Source of the DNA: Alphaproteobacteria bacterium
Lineage (GTDB): Bacteria; Pseudomonadota; Alphaproteobacteria; ATCC43930; CGMCC-115725
NCBI GenBank assembly: GCA_030041335.1
Contig: JASHOB010000059.1
Location: 1-64,000, forward strand
Direction: 5' to 3'
DNA: 64,000 bases
The position numbers and the translations under genes are program-made. Below are positions 42,532 to 54,284 of the stretch, one piece after another. The notes under the pieces were generated by a model, which worked only from the letters and a program-made list of their open reading frames with translations, was not told the origin of the DNA and made no database searches. Position 1 is the first letter of the stretch; each line of letters opens with the position of its first letter.

Positions 42532-43452
42532 TCACCCCTTTGCCTTGAGGGCGTACTTCCGTTCATCCATGGTCGCGCGGGCCTGACGGTATTTGAGCAT
42601 CGCCTGGTGGCGCTTCGCCTGGCCCTCTCGGTCGGAATCCTCGGGCGGTAAGGCATCGAGCACAGCCTTGAACCCGAGTTCCAACCCTTTGCGCGCCTCG
42701 GGATAGGGGATGATATAGAACTGGTTTTTTTTCACGGCTTCGAGCACATGGCCGGCCAGTTCCTCCGGCTCCATGCCGTGCGAATAGATTTCGCGCAAAG
42801 CCGCCATCTCCTCGTCATCGACCTGGAACCCGCTGTGGGAGAAATGTGCGGGGCGGGTCCGGATCGATTCGGCGATGTTGGTCCTAATATTTGCCGGGCA
42901 CAGGCACGAGACGCCGATATTGTGTTTGGCGAGCGCATCGCGCATCGCCAGCGTGATGCCGTGGACAGCGAATTTGGACGCGCTGTAGATGCCTGCGACG
43001 CTTGCCGCATGAAAGGCGCCGAGCGACGCGGTGTTGACGATGTGCCCGCCCCGACCGTACGCGATCATGCGCGGCACGAAGGTCTGCATGCCGTTGACCA
43101 CGCCACCGAAATTGACGCCCATCATCCAGTCATAATCATCATAGGTGGCTCTCTCCAACGGGCCGAAGATGGAGACGCCAGCGGTGTTAAAGAGCAGCTC
43201 GACCGGACCGAAGACCCGTTCCGTCTCGTCCGCGGCGCGAGCAAATGCGGCGCGGTCGGTAACGTCGAGGGCGATCGCATGAACTTGCGCCTTCAGCTTT
43301 CTGAGGGCGTCGACGGCCTGATCGAGATGATCCTGACGGATATCGGCGATCACCACCCGACAGCCGGCGGCCGAGAATCTCTTGGCTTGACCGAGACCGG
43401 CGCCACTCCCGCCACCGGTGATAAACGCAACCTTGCCCGAAAAGTCTTCCAT
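42532..43452 (-). CDS. SDR-family NAD(P)-dependent oxidoreductase
   Basis: The 306-residue classical SDR has the cofactor loop ITGGGSGAGLG near residue 12, the acidic DIRQDH that favours NAD, the NTAG segment (LFNTAGVS), a serine in VNTASLG and the catalytic YSASK near 150. A C-terminal extension of about 60 residues includes KKNQFYIIPYPEARKG, as in a group of long SDRs often linked to lipid or aromatic metabolism. Start ATG 43452 follows GGGAGAG. An open, hydrophobic in-frame stretch lies upstream (43453-43833), but the SDR domain is complete without it. Substrate unknown. Confidence 0.87.
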   Translation of the reverse strand: MEDFSGKVAFITGGGSGAGLGQAKRFSAAGCRVVIADIRQDHLDQAVDALRKLKAQVHAIALDVTDRAAFARAADETERVFGPVELLFNTAGVSIFGPLERATYDDYDWMMGVNFGGVVNGMQTFVPRMIAYGRGGHIVNTASLGAFHAASVAGIYSASKFAVHGITLAMRDALAKHNIGVSCLCPANIRTNIAESIRTRPAHFSHSGFQVDDEEMAALREIYSHGMEPEELAGHVLEAVKKNQFYIIPYPEARKGLELGFKAVLDALPPEDSDREGQAKRHQAMLKYRQARATMDERKYALKAKG

Positions 43453-43909
43453 GCCGCTCTCCCTCTTTTGCACCCTCCGTCGATTAGCCAACAGGCCCAT
43501 GGCGATACTGCCGATCAGGCTCAGCGCTGCGAGCAACGCGGGTGGCAACCGACAAATCGTCAGCAGAATGAGGCCGAGGAGCGCCAACGCCAATGACGAT
43601 GTGACAGCGCTCGTCGAGCGCCGATTGTAGAGGGCGGCGAGAATTAGGGCGACGCACCACGGCTTGGCCACCCCGCGATTGCGACCGCGCGGCCCCCAAA
43701 AAGAGCAGCGATGCCCCATTCGCGACAAAAGCCCGAAGAAGGAATTGCCGCTTTTGCCGCGCCGCGCCGGCGATGATGCTCGCAGGTGAAGGCCGCACGC
43801 GGACCGGCCTGGCGCGACGTCGCTCCCGGCCATGACCCGGTATCGGACTATTTCGCTCCTGGCCCGGAAGGCTGGCGCCGGACCAGATCCAAAGGAAGTG
43901 CGGTTTCGG
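43453..43909 (-). other. Spacer with an in-frame hydrophobic open stretch before the SDR
   Basis: These 457 bases separate asnB-like and SDR genes. On the minus strand the frame of the SDR stays open to 43833 and encodes two hydrophobic runs, VALILAALYN and SLALALLGLILL with ALLAALSLIGSIAMGLL, ending in RRRVQK. This could be a membrane anchor of an extended SDR, a remnant of a separate small membrane protein, or chance. No ribosome-binding site or start codon clearly supports it. Confidence 0.3.
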
Positions 43910-45781
43910 TCAGTAGCTCAGCCGGAACTGGCGCTGGAACAATTCGAGATTGAGCAGCATCCAAACCAACTTACCGTGGTCCCGGCGGCCGCTTTCCTGT
44001 TCCCTGAGGGTCCGATCGATGGTGGCGCGATCGCACAACGCCTGTGCCAGTGAGCCCGGCGCGTCAAGTAACTCGTGCACAAAACTGCGCATTGGGCCGC
44101 GGCACCATTCGTTGATCGGTACGCGGAATGGGAGCCTCGGTCGTTCCACAATGGACTGCGGTAGGATGTTTTCCATGGCGCGGCGGAGGATCGATTTCTG
44201 CGCCAAGCCGCGAATGCGCCACGCGTCCGGCAGACGCGCGAGCAACCGGGCAAGGTCGATATCCATAAATGGCGCGCGGGCCTCGATTGATGCGGCCATG
44301 GTGATGCGGTCGCCTCGCTCCAGCAGATTCGGCAACCGCGACCCTTGGTCGAAATAGGCGACGGGTCGCGATGCGGAACGGTGCCCGTTGGCCCGGGCAG
44401 CCGGATGATGAGCGGGATGCTGTTTGCTCATTTCCGACGAGAGCTTGTCGTGCTCGGCATGGGTGAGCGCGCCGACAAAGCGCGCCATGCGGTCGACCGG
44501 ATCGCGTCGCGCCAGTGATGTCGCCAGCAGCTTGACGCGGCGGAATCCGTGCGGCGAATCAATCGCCGCGGCCGCCGCGCGATCCCGCGCATTGTCGAGC
44601 ACTTCCCGCCGGTCGAGGGCAGCGAAGCGTTCACCTGTATCCATAGGGTAAGCGCCGAAGAGTTGATCCGAGCCGTCGCCGGTCAGTACCATCTTTACGC
44701 TCTTTGCGGCTTCGCGGGCGATGAGATAGATCGGAAGGCTCGCAGCTTCGGCAACTGGCGCGTCCTCGCGGTCGATCAGCGTCGCGACGTGTTGCATCAG
44801 ATCGTCGGCGGTAATGGTCAGTGCCGTGTGATTGGTACGGAACCGCTGCGCTATCATCGCGGCATAAGGAAGTTCCGAATACTGCGCCTCGCGAAACCCG
44901 ACCGAGAAAGTGTTGATTGGCTGTGCCGAATGACGGCTCATCAATGCCACGATCGCCGAACTGTCGAGCCCGCCTGAAAGGAATGCCCCGAAGGGCGCAT
45001 CGGCCACCATTCGGCGACGCACGGCTTCGTCGAGCCGCGCGGCGAAGGCTGCTACCGGATCAGTGACCGGCGCCAGCGGCGGCGGCTCGCCGTGCGGCGG
45101 CGGGCAAAACGTCGTCTCGGTGAGATGCCCCCCCTGCCAAATTGCATACGATCCGGGCATGAGTTTGCGGATGCCCGCGAATAGCGTGAATGGCGCGGCA
45201 ACATCGCCGGAGACGAAAAAATCGGCGAGCGCGGCCGGATCAAGGGTCGGCGCGATGTCGCCGAACGCCAGTATCGCCTTGATCTCGGAAGCGAACAGCA
45301 GGCGCCCGCCCTGCTCGTGGATGAAGAGCGGCTTCTTGCCAAGATGATCCCGCGCGAGCATCAGCCGTTGGCGCCGGTCGTCCCACAGGGCGAAGGAATA
45401 GGTGCCGAGAAGGCGTTCGACGCAGCCGGGGCCCCACTCGGTATAGGCGCTGAGCACGACCTCGGTGTCGGCGCCGGTGTGGAAGCGGTAGCCTTTAGCT
45501 TCCAGCTCGGTGCGCAGTTCGGTGCAATTGTAGATCTCGCCGTTGATCACCAACGTCACGCCGCTCAATGGATGGGTGATCGGTTGGTCACCGCCAGCCA
45601 GGTCGAGAACGGTGAGCCGACGATGTCCAAGCCCGATCGTGTGCCTGCCGTCAGCACTGCTCCGGACGAAAAAGCCCTCGCCGTCGGGGCCGCGATGGCG
45701 GATGCGATCAGTCATCGCCTTGAGACGGTGACCCGCGTCGGGCAGCTGACCCGACAGTATGAATCCCGCCACACCAGACAT
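43910..45781 (-). CDS. Asparagine synthetase B-like protein with Ser in place of the catalytic Cys
   Basis: The 623-residue protein has an N-terminal Ntn glutaminase domain (1-210) and a C-terminal synthetase domain (about 235-600) with the pyrophosphatase loop LSGGLDSS at 268-275. Glutaminase substrate contacts are conserved: HRRLTVLD (53-60), NGEIYN (80-85) and GADTEV near 103. The N-terminus reads MSGVAGF instead of the family's MCGIAGF, so the nucleophilic Cys1 is serine (codon TCT at 45778-45776). By analogy with Cys-to-Ser mutants of E. coli AsnB it should not use glutamine and may use ammonia. Relatives without this cysteine include beta-lactam synthetase. It has no clear pathway neighbours. 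Confidence 0.88.
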   Translation of the reverse strand: MSGVAGFILSGQLPDAGHRLKAMTDRIRHRGPDGEGFFVRSSADGRHTIGLGHRRLTVLDLAGGDQPITHPLSGVTLVINGEIYNCTELRTELEAKGYRFHTGADTEVVLSAYTEWGPGCVERLLGTYSFALWDDRRQRLMLARDHLGKKPLFIHEQGGRLLFASEIKAILAFGDIAPTLDPAALADFFVSGDVAAPFTLFAGIRKLMPGSYAIWQGGHLTETTFCPPPHGEPPPLAPVTDPVAAFAARLDEAVRRRMVADAPFGAFLSGGLDSSAIVALMSRHSAQPINTFSVGFREAQYSELPYAAMIAQRFRTNHTALTITADDLMQHVATLIDREDAPVAEAASLPIYLIAREAAKSVKMVLTGDGSDQLFGAYPMDTGERFAALDRREVLDNARDRAAAAAIDSPHGFRRVKLLATSLARRDPVDRMARFVGALTHAEHDKLSSEMSKQHPAHHPAARANGHRSASRPVAYFDQGSRLPNLLERGDRITMAASIEARAPFMDIDLARLLARLPDAWRIRGLAQKSILRRAMENILPQSIVERPRLPFRVPINEWCRGPMRSFVHELLDAPGSLAQALCDRATIDRTLREQESGRRDHGKLVWMLLNLELFQRQFRLSY

Positions 45782-46197
45782 GTTATTCGGTGGCCGCTGC
45801 CCGCGGCATGGCGTGACCCATCGAGTCCGTGGCGATTCGGCTCATGACGGCGCTCTGCGCCCGGTCACTCCTTGAGAAAACCACAGCAATAGATGTCATC
45901 GACGCATAAACCGCTATTCGAGCTAAAGACCTCGGCGACGAATCTTTCATCCAGCCTGGGATCGCCGCCACATGCAGGGTGGATAAAGCTTGCGCCCATT
46001 CCATCCTAACGAAGAAACGTTAACAAACTCGGATCGCGCCGGTGTTGCGGTGTGGCGGCGATCGAAGCCTCGGCGACGAGCGCAGGCCGCACCTCGCGCT
46101 GGTTCGACCGACCACGGCCGGTTCATCCTGCCGGTCCACCGGCGCGAGACGGGCCAACTTTGCCCCTCGCCCCTTGTCGAGGCGGGTAGCGGCCTTG
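45782..46197. other. Gene-free spacer upstream of the asparagine synthetase-like gene
   Basis: These 416 bases hold no reading frame that looks like a protein or has a supporting ribosome-binding site. The part at about 45880-46030 is less GC-rich and contains AACGTTAAC (46014-46022) and several TA-rich hexamers. The promoter of the gene ending at 43910 probably lies at the left of this stretch. Confidence 0.45.
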
Positions 46198-47019
46198 TCA
46201 CCGTCCGGCGGCTTCGATCATCGCATTGATCAAGGGTTTCATAAAAAAACGCTCTTTCGGCACGATCTCGACGCGTGCCCCGAACTTGGTGAGTTCACCG
46301 GTGACCACGGGTCCGACCGCGGCGATGCGGGTCAGCGCCAAGCCTTGTCGCAGCTGTCCGGCAATCCCTCTCGCTTCGGCAACGGCAATCAACCGCCGCA
46401 CCTGCGGCGCACTGGTGAAGGCGATGATATCAACGACGCCGGCCGCGAGGCTTTCGATCAGATCGGCGACACGCCCATCTTCGGTCGCGGAGGCGTAGAC
46501 GTAGGGCGTGACCGGATCGGCAATGGCGCCCGCGCCGGCGAGAAAGCCCAGCAGTTCTTCATGCGTATGGTCGGGGTAGAGCTGCACAGCAATCCGGCGG
46601 CCGGCCAAAGCGAGGGGCGATAGCGTTGCGATCACGCCTTTGGTCGTAGGGGTAGCGGCCGGCAGATCGACACTTAAACCCAGTTCGCGCAAGGCTCGTG
46701 CCGGTTTTGGGCCACGCGTAATTTTGCGTACCGCGCCAAGTCGCGCGACGAACGCCAGCTCTAATCCCGCGCGACGGGCGAAGCCGACAAGGCGACGCAG
46801 ACCTTCGCCCGTCAGCAAGATGAGATCATCGCACCCGCCATCGCTGAATCGCCTGAGCCATGCCTCCACCGGCGCCGCCTCGGGCGTGTCATGGATTGCG
46901 ACCAGCGGGCACCGCAAGGTGATGGCGCCGCGCTCCTCGAGCATGCGCGCGAACACGTCGAGCTCGCGGGTCTCGGGAATGGCGACGGTACGCCCGGAAA
47001 GATCAGCCGGCTTTTCCAT
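46198..47019 (-). CDS. Uroporphyrinogen-III synthase (HemD)-family protein
   Basis: The 273-residue protein has the two-lobed HemD fold: VAIPETRELDVFARMLEERG at the N-terminus, the hinge region, then DIIAFTSAPQVRRL near 195 and AAVGPVVTGELTKFGARV near 235. These match the uroporphyrinogen-III synthases that close the first tetrapyrrole ring. HemD sequences diverge strongly and no other heme gene is near. It is a little longer than usual, so it may be the housekeeping enzyme or an accessory HemD-like protein. Start ATG 47019 overlaps the esterase gene's 3' end by 17 bases; ATG 47049 is an alternative. Confidence 0.75.
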   Translation of the reverse strand: MEKPADLSGRTVAIPETRELDVFARMLEERGAITLRCPLVAIHDTPEAAPVEAWLRRFSDGGCDDLILLTGEGLRRLVGFARRAGLELAFVARLGAVRKITRGPKPARALRELGLSVDLPAATPTTKGVIATLSPLALAGRRIAVQLYPDHTHEELLGFLAGAGAIADPVTPYVYASATEDGRVADLIESLAAGVVDIIAFTSAPQVRRLIAVAEARGIAGQLRQGLALTRIAAVGPVVTGELTKFGARVEIVPKERFFMKPLINAMIEAAGR

Positions 47020-48511
47020 CAAAAAACCGGTCGATGAAAACCATTTCATCGCGGCGCCAGCCCGAGCCCTCCCGGATTGGGCCGGCCAATTCGAGATAGT
47101 TGTCGCGTGATGCGTCGTAGCTCGGCCACGGAACGCCGGCACCGTTGGGATCGGCGGTGCGCGCAAATTGCACCCATAGCTTCATCACTGTCTGCGACAG
47201 TGCCAGATCGTCGGCGTCAAACGCGGCACCCTTCCTCGACGCGCCGCTCGCGCCGAATACGAACGACACTTCGTCGCCGTGATTGGGCCCGTCGGCCTGG
47301 CCCGAGCGCCGCTTCATGAACAGATAGCGCCACGTGCCTTTCCCGCTCCCTGCCATCGCGCGCGCCAAGGCCCAAGCGCCGTAGTTGAATTGCGTATCGG
47401 CAAACATCTCGGCCACCCGCGGCAACACCTCGGCGTCGCCGCTGGCAGGATATTGTTGCAAGGCGGCATCGGCGGCGGCGCCGAAATTCTCCAAGGCGAA
47501 GGCGCGATACGCCGTCATGTCCGTTACCGGCCAGGCGCCAACGAAAACGGACCCTTCATCGCGATTGGTTCCGACAATGATCGGCATCGGGTGATAATGA
47601 CCCGTGGCAAAAGCATCGCGTTCATCGCGCGGAATCACCCAGCCGTCCCGAATCGGGCGCAAGACGCGAGGCGTCGTCAGTCCCCGCATCTTAGGCACAA
47701 ACAGCGGGGTTTTTGCCAGAAGCTCCTCGGTCGACATGCGGCGCAATTGTGCGAGATCGTTGCCGAGTTTCAAGCCGTAGGCCTCGGCCTCAGCGAGGCT
47801 GGCGAGCGGGCGAAAGGCGCCCGGGCTTTCGAGGATCGCCCGCTGGAACAGGTCCTTGGCCAGAGGCGAGGTCAGCAATAGCGAAATTGATGCCGATCCG
47901 GCGGAGACGCCGAAAAGTGTCACGCGCTTCGGATCGCCGCCGAAGTTCGCAATGTTGTCCCGGATCCAGCGCAGCGCGGCGAGCTGATCCAATAGCGCGT
48001 AGTTGCTTGACGAACCGTGCGGCGATTCGGCCGTCAGTGCCGGATGCGCCAAGAATCCGAACACGCCGACGCGATAATTGGCGGTGATCAGAATCACACC
48101 GCGTTTCGCGAACTCCTCGCCGTCGAACAGGATGTCCGACGGACTGCCGACCATAAAACTGCCGCCGAACAGCCAGACCAGGACCGGCAGGCTTTCGCCG
48201 GGTTTGGCGGCCGGTGCCCAGATGTTGAGGTTGAGGCAATCCTCGCTTTGCCTACCGGCGCGCGAACTCGAGGGCCCGCCGGCCGGCGCTGCCGGCTGCG
48301 GACAGTCGGCACCCCATTCCGTTGCCTCGCGCACGCCGCCCCAAGGCAATGGTGGCGCGGGCGGCCGCCAGCGCATTTCGCCAACCGGCGGCGCCGCGAA
48401 CGGAATGCCGCGGAAGACGCGAACGCCGCTGGCGAGCGCCAAACCCGCAAACAACCCCCCCTCGGTGCGCACCGTCAAATCCGTCTCTCTTTTCGCCTGG
48501 GCCTCGGGCAT
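47003..48511 (-). CDS. Type B carboxylesterase/lipase
   Basis: The 502-residue alpha/beta hydrolase of the cholinesterase-like family starts at ATG 48511 with AGGAG at 6 bases. Landmarks are VFRGIPFAAPPVGEMRW near 30, the EDCLNLNIWAP segment near 92, the nucleophile in FGVSAGSASIS near 187, the acidic GTNRDEGSVF near 310 and the histidine in NHGDEVSFVFG near 395. The usual nucleophile motif GESAGA is GVSAGS. No signal peptide is seen. It hydrolyses carboxylic esters; the natural substrate is unknown. Divergent from the binding protein at 48606. Confidence 0.9.
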   Translation of the reverse strand: MPEAQAKRETDLTVRTEGGLFAGLALASGVRVFRGIPFAAPPVGEMRWRPPAPPLPWGGVREATEWGADCPQPAAPAGGPSSSRAGRQSEDCLNLNIWAPAAKPGESLPVLVWLFGGSFMVGSPSDILFDGEEFAKRGVILITANYRVGVFGFLAHPALTAESPHGSSSNYALLDQLAALRWIRDNIANFGGDPKRVTLFGVSAGSASISLLLTSPLAKDLFQRAILESPGAFRPLASLAEAEAYGLKLGNDLAQLRRMSTEELLAKTPLFVPKMRGLTTPRVLRPIRDGWVIPRDERDAFATGHYHPMPIIVGTNRDEGSVFVGAWPVTDMTAYRAFALENFGAAADAALQQYPASGDAEVLPRVAEMFADTQFNYGAWALARAMAGSGKGTWRYLFMKRRSGQADGPNHGDEVSFVFGASGASRKGAAFDADDLALSQTVMKLWVQFARTADPNGAGVPWPSYDASRDNYLELAGPIREGSGWRRDEMVFIDRFFDGKAG

Positions 48512-48605: not shown

Positions 48606-49784
48606 ATGAAGCGTCTTTTGGTCATGGGAGTCGTCGGCCTGGCATTGATTTGGGCGGGCAAGGGGTCGGCCGAGACTGTAAAAGTTGGCTTGATCATGCC
48701 GTTTTCCGGCTCATACGCCCAATGGGGAGCGGAGACGAAGGGCGGCGTGCGCGTCTACCAGGAGCTTCATGGCAAGAGCGTCAATGGCAACGATATCGAG
48801 ATCCTGTTCCGGGACGAAGGCGGCATCGACCCGGCACGTTCGAAGCAGCTCGCGACCGAGTTGATCCTGCGCGACCATATTCAATTCCTGACCGGCTTCG
48901 TCTTTAGCCCCGACGCGCTGGCGGTCGCCGATATCATTACGCAAGCAAAAATGCCGACCATCATCACCAATGCCGCGACCGGCTTCATCGTGCGCAAGTC
49001 ACCCTATTTTGTTCGGGTAAGCTTCACCCTGCAGCAGGAATCGGCGCCGCTCGGCACCTGGGCCGCAAAGGCCGGCATCAAGACGGTCGATTCCGTAATC
49101 GCGGACTATATCTCGGGCAAGGATTCGAATGACGGCTTCGAGAGAGCCTATGTCGCGGGCGGCGGCAAAGTATTGCAGACGATCAAATATCCGACCACGG
49201 TCGCCGACATTACGCCCTATTACGAGCGGGTGCTTCAGGACAAGCCGCAAGCGGTTCAGGTGTTCGGCACCGGCGGCACCAATTCAGTGATGATGATTCG
49301 CACCTGGGCGGCGCGCCTGCGCCCTGCCGGCATCGGCTTTATCGGTGCAACGCAGCTGCAGGAAACCGACATGCCGAGCATCGGGGATGCAGTGATCGGC
49401 CTGGTTTCCACGACGCACTATCCCGAACACAATGACAGTCCGATCAACAAAGAGCTGCGCGCGCAATGGTTCAAAGATTATGGTGCCGACACGACACTCG
49501 TACCCGATATCGCCACTTGCGCCGTCTACGATGCGATGGAGCTGATCTACCGCGCGGTCGCCAAGTTCGGTCCGGGCGTGACCGGCGACCAGGCGATCGG
49601 CTTCTATAAGGGGCTGACAATCCCCAGCCCGCGCGGCTCGATCACCATCGATCCGAAAACCCGCGACGTCATCCAGAACATCTACGTGCAGAAAGTCGAA
49701 AAGAGGGACGGCAAGCTCGAGAATGTGCCTTTCGACGTGGTCAAGGACGTCAAGGACCCGTGGAAGGAAGCAAATCCGGAATAA
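48606..49784 (+). CDS. Periplasmic binding protein, branched-chain amino acid (type I) family
   Basis: The 392-residue exported ligand-binding protein starts at ATG 48606 after GGGAGGGATAGGA. A signal peptide (1-22, cleaved near KGSAE) is followed by VKVGLIMPFSGSYAQWG and IEILFRDEGGIDPARSKQLA in two parts, which is the Peripla_BP_6 (LivJ-like) pattern. The matching permease and ATPase genes are not adjacent. It is first of a long plus-strand run that includes an amidohydrolase, a Rieske oxygenase, uraH and xdhABC, so the ligand may be their substrate, such as an aromatic or purine-like compound. That is inference from position. Confidence 0.88.
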   Translation: MKRLLVMGVVGLALIWAGKGSAETVKVGLIMPFSGSYAQWGAETKGGVRVYQELHGKSVNGNDIEILFRDEGGIDPARSKQLATELILRDHIQFLTGFVFSPDALAVADIITQAKMPTIITNAATGFIVRKSPYFVRVSFTLQQESAPLGTWAAKAGIKTVDSVIADYISGKDSNDGFERAYVAGGGKVLQTIKYPTTVADITPYYERVLQDKPQAVQVFGTGGTNSVMMIRTWAARLRPAGIGFIGATQLQETDMPSIGDAVIGLVSTTHYPEHNDSPINKELRAQWFKDYGADTTLVPDIATCAVYDAMELIYRAVAKFGPGVTGDQAIGFYKGLTIPSPRGSITIDPKTRDVIQNIYVQKVEKRDGKLENVPFDVVKDVKDPWKEANPE

Positions 49785-49787
49785 CGC

Positions 49788-51056
49788 GTGCCGCGCACCC
49801 TGATCACCAACGTCTCGATCTTCGACGGCAGCGGTGCCTTGCCGTTTCCGGGTGAGGTCCTGATCGAAGGCAATCGTGTCAAGGCGGTGGCCAACGGCGG
49901 CGAGCGGTTAGCCGCCGTTGGCGCCGCGGTTGTCGATGGCGAAGGCGGGACGTTGATCCCGGGCTTGGTCGAATCACATGCGCATCTGGGATTCGGTTCG
50001 GCGGTCGATCGCGTCGTGCGAGGACGCGTCCGCTCCGCAGCAGAGATGTTGTTGATTACCGCACACACTGCCAAGGTAATGCTCGACCATGGCTTCACTT
50101 CGGCCTATTCGGCTGGCGCCCACGACGCGTCGGCGGAAACCGCATTGCGCGACGAGATCGCGGCCGGCTGGCTGCCGGGCCCGCGACTGCGCGCCTGTTC
50201 GTTCGAACGGGAAGCGGCACCCGCCACGGCTTCACCGGGACGGCGATATGTCAGCTTCGAACAGCGGTCTCCGGACGTCGGGAGTGTCCGCGCCTTCGTC
50301 AACGAAATGGCGCGGATCGGCGTCGATTCCGTGAAGTTCGTGGTGACCGGGGACAACAGCATCGTGCCGAATACGTCGCTCGTTCTGCTTTATCACGACG
50401 ACGAACTGGCCGCGGCGGCGGCGGCCGCGCGCGAGGCCGGTCTCTGGCTTAACGCACACGCCCATTCCGCCGAGGCAATCAAGCTGGTGCTCAAGCACGG
50501 CTTCCGGGTGATTTATCACTGCACCTGGCCTGACGAAGAAGCGCTCGACATGTTGGAGGCGCGCAAGCACGAAATCTTCGTGGCGCCGACGGTAGGCCTG
50601 AATTGGACGAATATCCACGCCGACCCCGATTACGCCAAGCGCGACAACGGCGGAGCACTGAGGGAGCAGATCGCCAAACTCGACCATCTCGGCGAGTTGC
50701 TGCCGGTTCTGCACAAGCGTGGTATCCGGTTGCTGCCCGGCGGCGATTACGGATTTCCGACCAACCCCATCGGCCGGAACGCTCATGACCTCGAATTGTT
50801 TGTCAAACTGTTCGGCTTCACGCCGGCCGAGACCTTGAGCGCCGCAACGAAGCTCGGGGGCGAGATCATGGGCATGGGTGACGAACTTGGGCTGATCAGG
50901 CCTGGTTATCTCGCGGACCTGTTGCTGATCGACGGCGATCCGCTGCACGACGTCGCACTGCTTCAGAATGCCGAGCGGTACTTGATGATCATGAAGGATG
51001 GCAAATACCATAAGGCGCCGCCGCGCCACCGTCAGCGGAGCGCGGAGCCAGCCTAG
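49788..51056 (+). CDS. Imidazolonepropionase-like amidohydrolase
   Basis: The 422-residue metal-dependent hydrolase (COG1228-like) starts at GTG 49788, 3 bases after the preceding stop. The metal site shows ESHAHLGFG near 63, a lysine in DSVKFVVTG near 185 that could be carbamylated or structural, AHAHSAEA near 222, YHCTW near 244 and the aspartate in GGDYGFPT near 320. The C-terminal GLIRPGYLADLLLIDGDPL is the standard closing strand. Such enzymes open cyclic amides, ureides or imidazole derivatives. In the context of the uraH/xdh genes, a cyclic ureide or purine-derived ring is a reasonable but unproven substrate. Confidence 0.88.
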   Translation: MPRTLITNVSIFDGSGALPFPGEVLIEGNRVKAVANGGERLAAVGAAVVDGEGGTLIPGLVESHAHLGFGSAVDRVVRGRVRSAAEMLLITAHTAKVMLDHGFTSAYSAGAHDASAETALRDEIAAGWLPGPRLRACSFEREAAPATASPGRRYVSFEQRSPDVGSVRAFVNEMARIGVDSVKFVVTGDNSIVPNTSLVLLYHDDELAAAAAAAREAGLWLNAHAHSAEAIKLVLKHGFRVIYHCTWPDEEALDMLEARKHEIFVAPTVGLNWTNIHADPDYAKRDNGGALREQIAKLDHLGELLPVLHKRGIRLLPGGDYGFPTNPIGRNAHDLELFVKLFGFTPAETLSAATKLGGEIMGMGDELGLIRPGYLADLLLIDGDPLHDVALLQNAERYLMIMKDGKYHKAPPRHRQRSAEPA

Positions 51057-51075
51057 TCATTCAGGAGAGCATTTG

Positions 51076-52389
51076 ATGACGAGCAAAGACAGCGAAGACT
51101 TAACCCGCGTCGGCCCCGGCACCGTCATGGGCGAGTTCATGCGGCAATATTGGCTGCCCGCGGCGCTGACGAGCGAACTAAAACCTGACGGCGCGCCGGT
51201 GCGGCTGATGCTGCTGGGCGAAAAGCTGATCGCATTCCGCGACACAAAGGGCCGCGTCGGGGTGATGGACCATCGCTGTCCGCACCGTTGCGCTTCGCTT
51301 TTCCTCGGCCGCAACGAGGAAAACGGTATTCGCTGCGTCTATCACGGCTGGAAATTCGACGTCGACGGCAACTGCGTCGACATGGCCAGCGTGCCCGCGC
51401 ATCAGGACTTCAAAAACAGGGTCAAGGCGAAGGCCTACCAAGTCGCCGAGCGCAATGGCGTGGTCTGGGTCTATATGGGCAAGCGCGCGGCCGCGCCGCC
51501 TTTGCCTGGCCTCGAGGTGCTGCGTTTGCCCGAAGATGAGGTCACGGTCATCTGCGCATTGCGCGAATGCAACTGGCTGCAGGGCCTCGAAGGCGACATC
51601 GACACTTCCCATTTTGGTTTCCTCCATGCCGGCCATATCAAACCGGAGCAACTCGCCGCCGATCATCCATTCCGAGGCGCCGTATTCAATCGTGCGCCGG
51701 AGCTGAAGGTCATGGAGACGCCGTGGGGCACGAGCTATGGCGCCTACCGTCCCGCCGATGGCGGCGGCACCTATTGGCGTACCGCGAATTTCCTGTTCCC
51801 ATGCTGGACGCAGCAACCGCAAGGCGACTTCGCCACCAATGTCCATGCCCGCGCCTGGGTCCCGCTCGATGACCACCACATGATGTTCTACAATTTCGTC
51901 TGGAAGCGGCCCATGCCCGACCGCGCCACCGGCAAAGACGGCAAGCCGTTGAGCGGCGTGTCGCTTGGCTTTGACTTCCTGCCCAACACCACCGACTGGC
52001 TGGGCCGCTGGCGGCTCACCAGCCATCCGCGAAACGACTGGAATATCGACCGGGCGGCGCAAGCCGGCAGCGAGAGCTACACGGGTATCGCCAATATTCA
52101 CATGCAGGACCAGGCGGTGACCGAAAGCATGGGGCCGATCACCGACCATGAATTCGAACATCTGGCGCCCACCGATGTCATGATCGCGCGGACTCGCCGC
52201 CATATCCTGGCCACCGCACGCGCCGTCGCCGAGCAATCCGCGGCGCCCCCCTGTGTCGACGATCCCGATACCTACCTGAAGGCGCGAAGCGGCTTTTTCG
52301 TCGCCTCGGCAACGACCGAGTGGCAGGAGGCCTACGCGGACAATATCGCCAATGCGGTTCGGCCCGGGATGCGGCACGCCGCCGAATAG
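51076..52389 (+). CDS. Rieske non-heme iron oxygenase, alpha subunit (phthalate 4,5-dioxygenase-like)
   Basis: The 437-residue oxygenase starts at ATG 51076 after AGGAGAGC. The Rieske domain (about 25-140) has CPHRCASL near 67 and CVYHGWKF near 88, giving the 2Cys-2His cluster. The catalytic domain includes the mononuclear iron site in GDIDTSHFGFLHAGH near 174. It is of the ring-hydroxylase or O/N-demethylase type related to phthalate dioxygenase. No reductase gene is adjacent; one must be supplied from elsewhere. Its position just before uraH and xdhABC suggests action on a purine-related or nitrogen heterocycle; N-demethylation is one option, by analogy with Ndm enzymes. Confidence 0.88.
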   Translation: MTSKDSEDLTRVGPGTVMGEFMRQYWLPAALTSELKPDGAPVRLMLLGEKLIAFRDTKGRVGVMDHRCPHRCASLFLGRNEENGIRCVYHGWKFDVDGNCVDMASVPAHQDFKNRVKAKAYQVAERNGVVWVYMGKRAAAPPLPGLEVLRLPEDEVTVICALRECNWLQGLEGDIDTSHFGFLHAGHIKPEQLAADHPFRGAVFNRAPELKVMETPWGTSYGAYRPADGGGTYWRTANFLFPCWTQQPQGDFATNVHARAWVPLDDHHMMFYNFVWKRPMPDRATGKDGKPLSGVSLGFDFLPNTTDWLGRWRLTSHPRNDWNIDRAAQAGSESYTGIANIHMQDQAVTESMGPITDHEFEHLAPTDVMIARTRRHILATARAVAEQSAAPPCVDDPDTYLKARSGFFVASATTEWQEAYADNIANAVRPGMRHAAE

Positions 52390-52470
52390 CCGCCGAAGTC
52401 GCTTGGCGAACGCTGCCAAGCGTGGGAGCATGGCCGTTCCTGCCCGGGTGTTCGGGAATTGCGGAGGCGG

Positions 52471-52821
52471 ATGGGTCGATTAACCACCCATGTGTTGGAC
52501 ACGGCCCGCGGCCGGCCGGCGGCGGGGCTGCACGTCGATTTGTTTTCGCTCGACGACGGACGCCGCCTGCTCAAAAGCGCGGTTACCAACGCTGACGGCC
52601 GGGTCGATTCACCGTTGCTCGAGAACACGACGCTCAGAGCCGGCCGCTACGAGCTGCTGTTTCGCGCGGGCGATTATTGGCGCAGCACCGGCGAACCGAC
52701 CTCGGTGCCGCCTTTCCTCGACGAAATACCCGTGCGGTTTGGCATTGCCGACCCCAAGCAGCATTATCACGTGCCGTTGTTGCTCTCGCCATGGTGCTAT
52801 TCGACGTACCGGGGAAGTTGA
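52471..52821 (+). CDS. uraH: 5-hydroxyisourate hydrolase
   Basis: The 116-residue transthyretin-like enzyme hydrolyses 5-hydroxyisourate, the product of urate oxidation, to OHCU. The active-site histidine is in [16 protein letters not shown] (residues 2-17). The arginine region [10 protein letters not shown] lies near 42. [19 protein letters not shown] ends in the family's diagnostic YRGS. GGAGG (52463-52467) lies close to ATG 52471. The stop is 2 bases before xdhA, so they are translated together. A urate oxidase gene is not in the window. Confidence 0.94.
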
Positions 52822-52823
52822 AC

Positions 52824-54284
52824 ATGACTGGCCAAATCCGCTTTGTCTTGGACGGCGAGGTCCGCGAACTGCGGGGCGTGGCGCCGACCATGACAGTGCT
52901 GCAGTGGCTGCGCGATGATGCGCGCCGCTGCGGCACCAAGGAAGGTTGCGCCGAGGGCGATTGCGGCGCCTGTACCGTGGCGATCGGCGAGCGCCGAGGC
53001 GTCGACGACATGCGCTATCGCGCGGTCAATTCCTGCATCTTGTTCATGCCGATGCTTGACGGCAAGGAGCTGGTGACCGTCGAGAGTCTCAAGCACGAGG
53101 GCAGGCTTCATCCCGTGCAAAGGGCGATGGTCGAGTGTCACGGCTCGCAATGTGGCTTCTGTACCCCTGGCTTTGTCATGTCGCTCTTCACCCTCTATCA
53201 CAGCGGCAAGGAACCGCAGCGTGAGACGGTTGACGATGTGCTCGCGGGCAATCTCTGCCGATGCACGGGTTATCGCCCGATCATCGAGGCGGCGCAAAGG
53301 ATGCGCGAGTATGGCGCCAAGGATCAGTTCCACCGCCGCGCCGCCGCGACCGCGAGGCAACTCGCAGCGATCGAGCGCCGTGACACGCTGGCACTGGAAA
53401 AAGACGGTCAGCGCTATTTCGCACCGGCCAACCTTGAAGAGTTTACCGCCTGTTTTGAGCAATATCCCGAAGCGGCCCTCGTGGGCGGCGCGACGGATAT
53501 CGGCCTGTGGGTCACCAAACGGCATCAACGGCCCGAGACGCAGATCTACACCGGCGATATAGCGGAGCTGCGTCGCCTTAAGATCGGCGACGACTGCATC
53601 GAAATCGGCGGCGCGGCATCGCTGGGCGACGTTTTCGACGCTTTGCTCGCGGAATTTGCCGATTTCGGCGAAATCTTGCGGCGCTTTGGCTCGGTGCAGG
53701 TACGCAACGTCGCCACGCTCGGCGGCAATATCGCCAACGCCTCCCCGATCGGCGACATCGCGCCGTTGCTTTTGGCGCTCGACGCGGCGCTGTTGTTGCG
53801 CCGCAATCGCGAAACACGTTTGCTGCCGATCGATGAATTCTTTCTGGCCTATCGCAAGACCGCACTGCGAAACAGCGAATTTATTGATGCGATCCGCATT
53901 CCCCGCGCGCGGTCCGGCCTCAAATTCCGAGCCTACAAGATCTCGAAGCGTTTCGATCAAGACATTTCGGCCGTATGTGGCGCCTTCGCGCTGCAACTGG
54001 ATGGCAGTCGGATTGCCGAGATCCGCATGGGTTTCGGCGGCATGGCGGCGGTGCCGAAGCGCGCGGCCAATGCCGAAGCAGCGCTCATCGGCGAGGCATG
54101 GAACGAAGCGTCGGCGCGCGCGGCGATGCGGGCGATCGAGCGCGATTTTGAGCCGATGACGGACATGCGGGCGAGCGCACCCTATCGCCTGAAGCTGGCG
54201 CGAAATTTGCTTCTCAAGTTCTTTTTGGAGACAAGCAACCAGCCAGGCGCCACGCGCGTCATAAGGCGGGACATGGCGGCATGA
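52824..54284 (+). CDS. xdhA: Xanthine dehydrogenase small subunit XdhA
   Basis: This 486-residue subunit carries two 2Fe-2S clusters and FAD. The first cluster motif is GCAEGDCGACTV (Cys42, 47, 50, plus a later Cys in AVNSC). The second is GSQCGFCTPG near 112 with LCRCTGY near 148. The FAD-binding domain starts around 195 with ALVGGATDIGLWV and includes LGGNIANASPIGDIAP near 308. The complex with XdhB oxidises hypoxanthine and xanthine to urate with NAD. Start ATG 52824 has GGGGAAG upstream. The stop overlaps the xdhB start by ATGA. Confidence 0.95.
   Translation: MTGQIRFVLDGEVRELRGVAPTMTVLQWLRDDARRCGTKEGCAEGDCGACTVAIGERRGVDDMRYRAVNSCILFMPMLDGKELVTVESLKHEGRLHPVQRAMVECHGSQCGFCTPGFVMSLFTLYHSGKEPQRETVDDVLAGNLCRCTGYRPIIEAAQRMREYGAKDQFHRRAAATARQLAAIERRDTLALEKDGQRYFAPANLEEFTACFEQYPEAALVGGATDIGLWVTKRHQRPETQIYTGDIAELRRLKIGDDCIEIGGAASLGDVFDALLAEFADFGEILRRFGSVQVRNVATLGGNIANASPIGDIAPLLLALDAALLLRRNRETRLLPIDEFFLAYRKTALRNSEFIDAIRIPRARSGLKFRAYKISKRFDQDISAVCGAFALQLDGSRIAEIRMGFGGMAAVPKRAANAEAALIGEAWNEASARAAMRAIERDFEPMTDMRASAPYRLKLARNLLLKFFLETSNQPGATRVIRRDMAA

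Follow-up and report, generated by a model that had tools for sequence, protein, structure and literature searches.

The class-II amidotransferase relatives beta-lactam synthetase and CarA (1jgt, 1q15) lack the N-terminal catalytic cysteine of AsnB-type proteins (Cys1 in E. coli AS-B); they have lost the glutamine pocket and retain the synthetase site, including its lysine. In human asparagine synthetase (ASNS), the N-terminal cysteine is essential for glutamine-dependent activity according to a title cited in PMC6342913, where a cited title also reports an abortive complex of Cys-1 mutants with glutamine; the equivalent of human ASNS Lys-466 has been described as essential in AS-B (PMC6748925). 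WbpS and WbqG, members of eps_aminotran_1 (TIGR03108), convert uronic acids into uronamides in surface glycans (PMC7468200; see also PMC3684757).

The window, that is, the whole stretch of 64,000 nucleotides analysed here, carries an orphan gene of the AsnB type on its minus strand (Table 1), a strand that an earlier, sequence-only reading had not given. The frame opens with ATG TCT GGT GTG GCG GGA TTC, and the protein starts MSGVAGF instead of MCGIAGF, as that reading had claimed; the four motifs that it described as retained are all present (HRRL, residues 53-56; NGEIYN, 80-85; DTEV, 105-108; SGGLDSS, 269-275). The protein matches both PF00733 (Asn_synthase) and GATase_7; no other gene of the genome, which measures 5.17 Mb, encodes a complete PF00733 domain. 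It exceeds the TIGR01536 cut-off with a full-length match (434 versus 267.1 bits). Its best full-length NCBIfam match is TIGR03108, below cut-off (436.5 versus 816.9 bits), and the intact orthologue of a congener, G003, also scores below that cut-off (524.5 versus 816.9 bits), so that we speak of likeness to eps_aminotran_1 and not of proven membership. The likeness to WbpS and WbqG extends to the congeneric orthologues, which lie in exopolysaccharide (EPS) clusters; unlike these enzymes, the window protein is without Cys1, without the synthetase lysine and without a surrounding EPS cluster. The name asparagine synthetase given in the sequence-only reading does not fit, since the orthologues are WbpS-like polysaccharide amidotransferases and not general asparagine synthetases. 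A promoter scan gave nothing exceeding chance.

Table 1. Features of the amidotransferase locus (window coordinates).
Feature	Position	Strand	Remarks
Flank collinear with G003 contig C69	29643..41296		DegP, OmpR regulator, histidine kinase, L,D-transpeptidase, more
SDR gene	42532..43452	minus	synteny anchor bordering the EPS cluster in congeners; 79% identity to G003, 83% to G002
ChrA remnant	43486..43700 (core about 43486-43683)	minus	C-terminal ~60 codons of a chromate transporter (ChrA, PF02417)
Orphan WbpS/AsnB-like amidotransferase gene	43910..45781	minus	intact ORF, 623 aa
Codon 549	44135..44137	minus	AGG, Arg for synthetase Lys (AS-B K449 / human ASNS Lys-466)
Codon 373	44663..44665	minus	CAA, Gln for invariant Glu (AS-B E352 / human ASNS Glu-368)
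Codon 2	45776..45778	minus	TCT, Ser replacing the catalytic Cys (AS-B Cys1)

Alignment revealed a cysteine at the codon-2 position in all 32 homologues, namely the two congeneric orthologues and 30 others (27 chosen by similarity and three further AsnB-type genes of congeners), and we take the serine to be more than a chance variation. Both orthologues, from G003 (Stellaceae bacterium CRAIB_MAG78; 71% identity) and G001 (Rhodospirillales bacterium bin_32; 67%), start MCGVAGF. The G001 orthologue is divided between two contigs (L046 10537-12007 and L047 1-631) that overlap within the gene and differ at several residues, which suggests that this assembly mixes strains. A pattern search covering 385 genomes from the class found the serine form MSG[I/V/L]AG...HRGPD (TCN serine codons) in two and the cysteine version of the same N-terminal pattern in 168. 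No serine-bearing sister was found among the genome contigs: a query with a three-sequence alignment returned the same two orthologues and distant ones, and a single-sequence scan recovered zero relatives. The serine is thus not conserved in any clade found, a point that the sequence-only reading had proposed to check by alignment. The second natural Ser-for-Cys AsnB-like protein of the class, from G047 (L061 1708-3657, minus strand), starts MSGIAG. In contrast to the window protein, it shows erosion of the glutamine pocket (NGE to DGQ; Asp of DTEV to Asn) and keeps the synthetase lysine, with Ala at the E352 position. We regard it as an independent case with a pattern of its own, and as likelier than the window protein to be a true enzyme dependent on ammonia or an amine.

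The active sites were read by alignment to E. coli AS-B (1ct9) and family homologues. In the glutamine site, the arginine, NGE and DTEV residues are kept and Cys1 alone is lost. In the synthetase site, the PP-loop SGGLDSS and D372 (AS-B D351) are kept; the invariant Glu and the synthetase Lys are replaced (Table 1), as are an invariant Gly by A377 (G377A; AS-B G356) and the invariant Gly two residues past the Lys by P551 (G551P). At the positions of K449R, E352Q, G356A and the Gly-to-Pro change, both congeners and at least 29 of 30 homologues have the conserved residue. A conserved Pro is changed as well, to L395 (P395L). None of Q373, R549, A377, P551 and L395 had been mentioned in the sequence-only reading. 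D369 (AS-B E348) was considered as a further loss and rejected, because Asp is usual at this position in the family (28 of 30). The window protein resembles AsnB (TIGR01536, 1ct9) in belonging to the two-domain family and in its glutamine-pocket motifs and PP-loop, and differs from it by Ser2 in place of the N-terminal catalytic Cys (C1S), by E352Q, by Arg549 in place of the catalytic Lys (K449R) and by Pro for the invariant Gly that follows. Its pattern is nearly the reverse of that of beta-lactam synthetase and CarA, both distant matches to it: here the glutamine pocket is kept and the synthetase altered. Judged by these residues, the protein is most likely unable to use glutamine, which agrees with the loss that had been expected from the Cys-to-Ser change, and it is probably unable to make an amide. 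We infer this second loss, since our literature search found no measured effect of a Lys-to-Arg change at the AS-B K449 equivalent.

We compared the locus with those of the congeners. In G003 and G001, the orthologue comes after a glycosyltransferase inside the EPS cluster, which in both includes a polyprenyl sugar transferase (TIGR03025, over cut-off), a Wzz-type chain-length protein and an export protein. The G003 cluster also holds an FkbM methyltransferase, a glycosyltransferase, an XrtA-type ATPase, a tyrosine-autokinase-like protein, O-antigen-ligase-like and heparinase-like proteins, an NDP-sugar dehydrogenase (over cut-off) and a chromate transporter (ChrA), followed by the SDR gene; in G002, the SDR gene is immediately preceded by the NDP-sugar dehydrogenase tail. 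In the window, the gene has no polysaccharide cluster around it. Collinearity with G003 runs leftward from the SDR gene (43452 to 29643), and the gap between the amidotransferase and SDR genes measures ~0.45 kb in the window versus ~11 kb in G003, where it contains the remaining EPS cluster and ChrA. The ChrA remnant within the short gap aligns locally with G003 ChrA at a score of 113, whereas 1000 shuffles reached 63 at most; it is interpreted here as a deletion scar. The window genome is a draft assembly of 262 contigs, in which no match to the cluster ATPase was found, the export protein has a weak match of 28%, and the single match to the sugar transferase stays below cut-off and lies on another contig. 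A search of 45782-46300 for what might be left of the upstream glycosyltransferase found nothing. The right flank, from 46198 onward, has no match in G003 contig C69, and the rearrangement border is for this reason placed, probably, within the HemD-side flank (45782-47166). The simplest history compatible with this gene order would be a deletion of the EPS cluster on both sides of the amidotransferase gene. Region 45782-47166 consists of a HemD-like (PF02602) gene and then ~400 bases without an evident gene, which lead to the amidotransferase gene. Positions 48606-54284 hold a catabolic-looking run with an ABC-transporter periplasmic binding protein, an amidohydrolase, a Rieske LigXa-type oxygenase and an ORF fusing the 2Fe-2S and FAD domains of molybdopterin dehydrogenases.

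Saturation at synonymous sites led us to use amino-acid rates and conserved-site tests in place of dN/dS. Counting changes that occur in a single one of three orthologues (window, G003, G001), we found that 14 of the 112 window-only changes fall on family-conserved sites, versus 1 of 68 in the two congeners together (Fisher p=0.010). Set against the other two branches, that of the window gives a ratio of 1.40 in the amidotransferase and 0.56 in three neighbouring control genes, a 2.49-fold excess (bootstrap 1.81-3.46). Under the codon model, omega=1 is rejected over the whole window branch (2dL=105, omega ~0.10, synonymous sites near saturation), indicating that constraint held over much of the branch and that relaxation would be recent or partial. 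Branch-wise dN/dS over the whole gene, with synonymous sites saturated, gave no clear shift (2dL 0.47); one was seen in the C-terminal third alone, with omega 0.18 versus 0.05 (2dL 10.1, one among several tests). At the 5% level, the lack of a stop is compatible with at most ~127 unconstrained substitutions. Of the marks of a pseudogene, the gene thus shows active-site loss and accelerated change and lacks a disabled frame, its 623 codons being open.

We consider it probable that the gene encodes an EPS amidotransferase left behind by the cluster deletion, which is decaying and has not acquired new chemistry. The ancestor would have been an enzyme of the WbpS/eps_aminotran_1 kind, taking NH3 from glutamine via Cys1 and passing it to an AMP-activated carboxylate, probably that of a uronic-acid sugar supplied by the NDP-sugar dehydrogenase of the cluster, to give a uronamide in the exopolysaccharide. 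The presence of this dehydrogenase makes a uronic acid a plausible substrate, and uronamide a plausible product, by analogy with the described enzymes. The order of events that would connect the observed sequence changes, synteny, scar and rate is cluster deletion followed by active-site losses. In the window lineage the deletion would have left the amidotransferase gene alone by the old cluster border; with the pathway gone, Cys1 could be lost (and with it the hydrolysis of glutamine), as could the Lys and Glu of the synthetase site (and with them, probably, adenylate and amide formation), and the gene could evolve at about 2-2.5 times its neighbours' rate. Several facts stand against decay: the ORF has no break, selection acted over most of the branch, the N-terminal glutamine pocket is unchanged except for Cys1, K449R is a conservative substitution, and the absence of the cluster rests on a 262-contig assembly. 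The intact frame, the rejection of omega=1 and the retained glutamine contacts, together with the abortive glutamine complex of human Cys-1 mutants (title cited in PMC6342913), would also suit a repurposed, non-catalytic protein that still binds glutamine, perhaps ATP, and acts as a sensor or partner. Such a role, if real, would explain why frame and pocket are intact after loss of the EPS pathway. We nevertheless hold it to be unlikely, since the Ser/Gln/Arg change is known from one genome with no conserving clade found, the loss of many structural invariants (G377A, P395L, G551P) resembles general relaxation, and no partner gene is evident.

The readings that keep the enzyme active fare less well. 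With Cys1 the sole change in the glutamine-site motifs, SGGLDSS and D372 kept, and no other AsnB-family gene in the genome, the protein could be imagined as an ammonia-dependent synthetase, as are engineered Cys1 mutants, making asparagine or another amide. This was one proposal of the sequence-only reading, and we find it quite improbable: the essential Lys is Arg, the E352 position is Gln, and the orthologues are enzymes of an EPS pathway that is gone. Moreover, the genome carries gatB and lacks an AsnRS that exceeds its cut-off, in keeping with asparagine synthesis on tRNA, and the cell then need not depend on this gene for asparagine. If the enzyme were active and codon 2 merely misread in sequencing or assembly, a single base (TGT to TCT) would suffice, in a draft assembly at that; but the serine is one of 14 window-only conserved-site changes, and the 13 others include the synthetase Lys and Glu, so that a lone error is insufficient and this explanation very improbable. 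Serine-type Ntn hydrolases exist, and the pocket residues are kept, so a weak residual glutaminase with serine as nucleophile, which had also been proposed, might be imagined. It is highly improbable given that human ASNS cannot do without the cysteine in its glutamine-dependent activity, according to the title cited in PMC6342913, that a glutaminase without a working synthetase yields no product, and that the serine marks no conserved clade found and the EPS cluster is deleted. Least credible, to the point of being nearly negligible, is a cyclase that needs no glutamine, after the manner of beta-lactam and carbapenam synthetases. The missing Cys1 and the distant matches to 1jgt and 1q15 recall these enzymes, but they combine loss of Cys1 with a functional synthetase site, whereas here the synthetase Lys and Glu are replaced and the glutamine pocket is otherwise complete; there are no biosynthetic neighbours, and the identity to EPS amidotransferases is 67-71%. 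The different amide or ring that had been suggested thus finds little room in an altered synthetase site encoded by a leftover of a deleted cluster.

Decay after cluster loss, as we read it here, means that an AsnB-type protein without its catalytic cysteine does not necessarily have a new chemistry, and that decay and innovation can be separated by examining the other active site together with the neighbouring genes. Annotation pipelines would probably still label the window protein a functional asparagine synthase, given that its score exceeds the TIGR01536 cut-off. The locus would offer a clear case of a gene surviving its deleted pathway.
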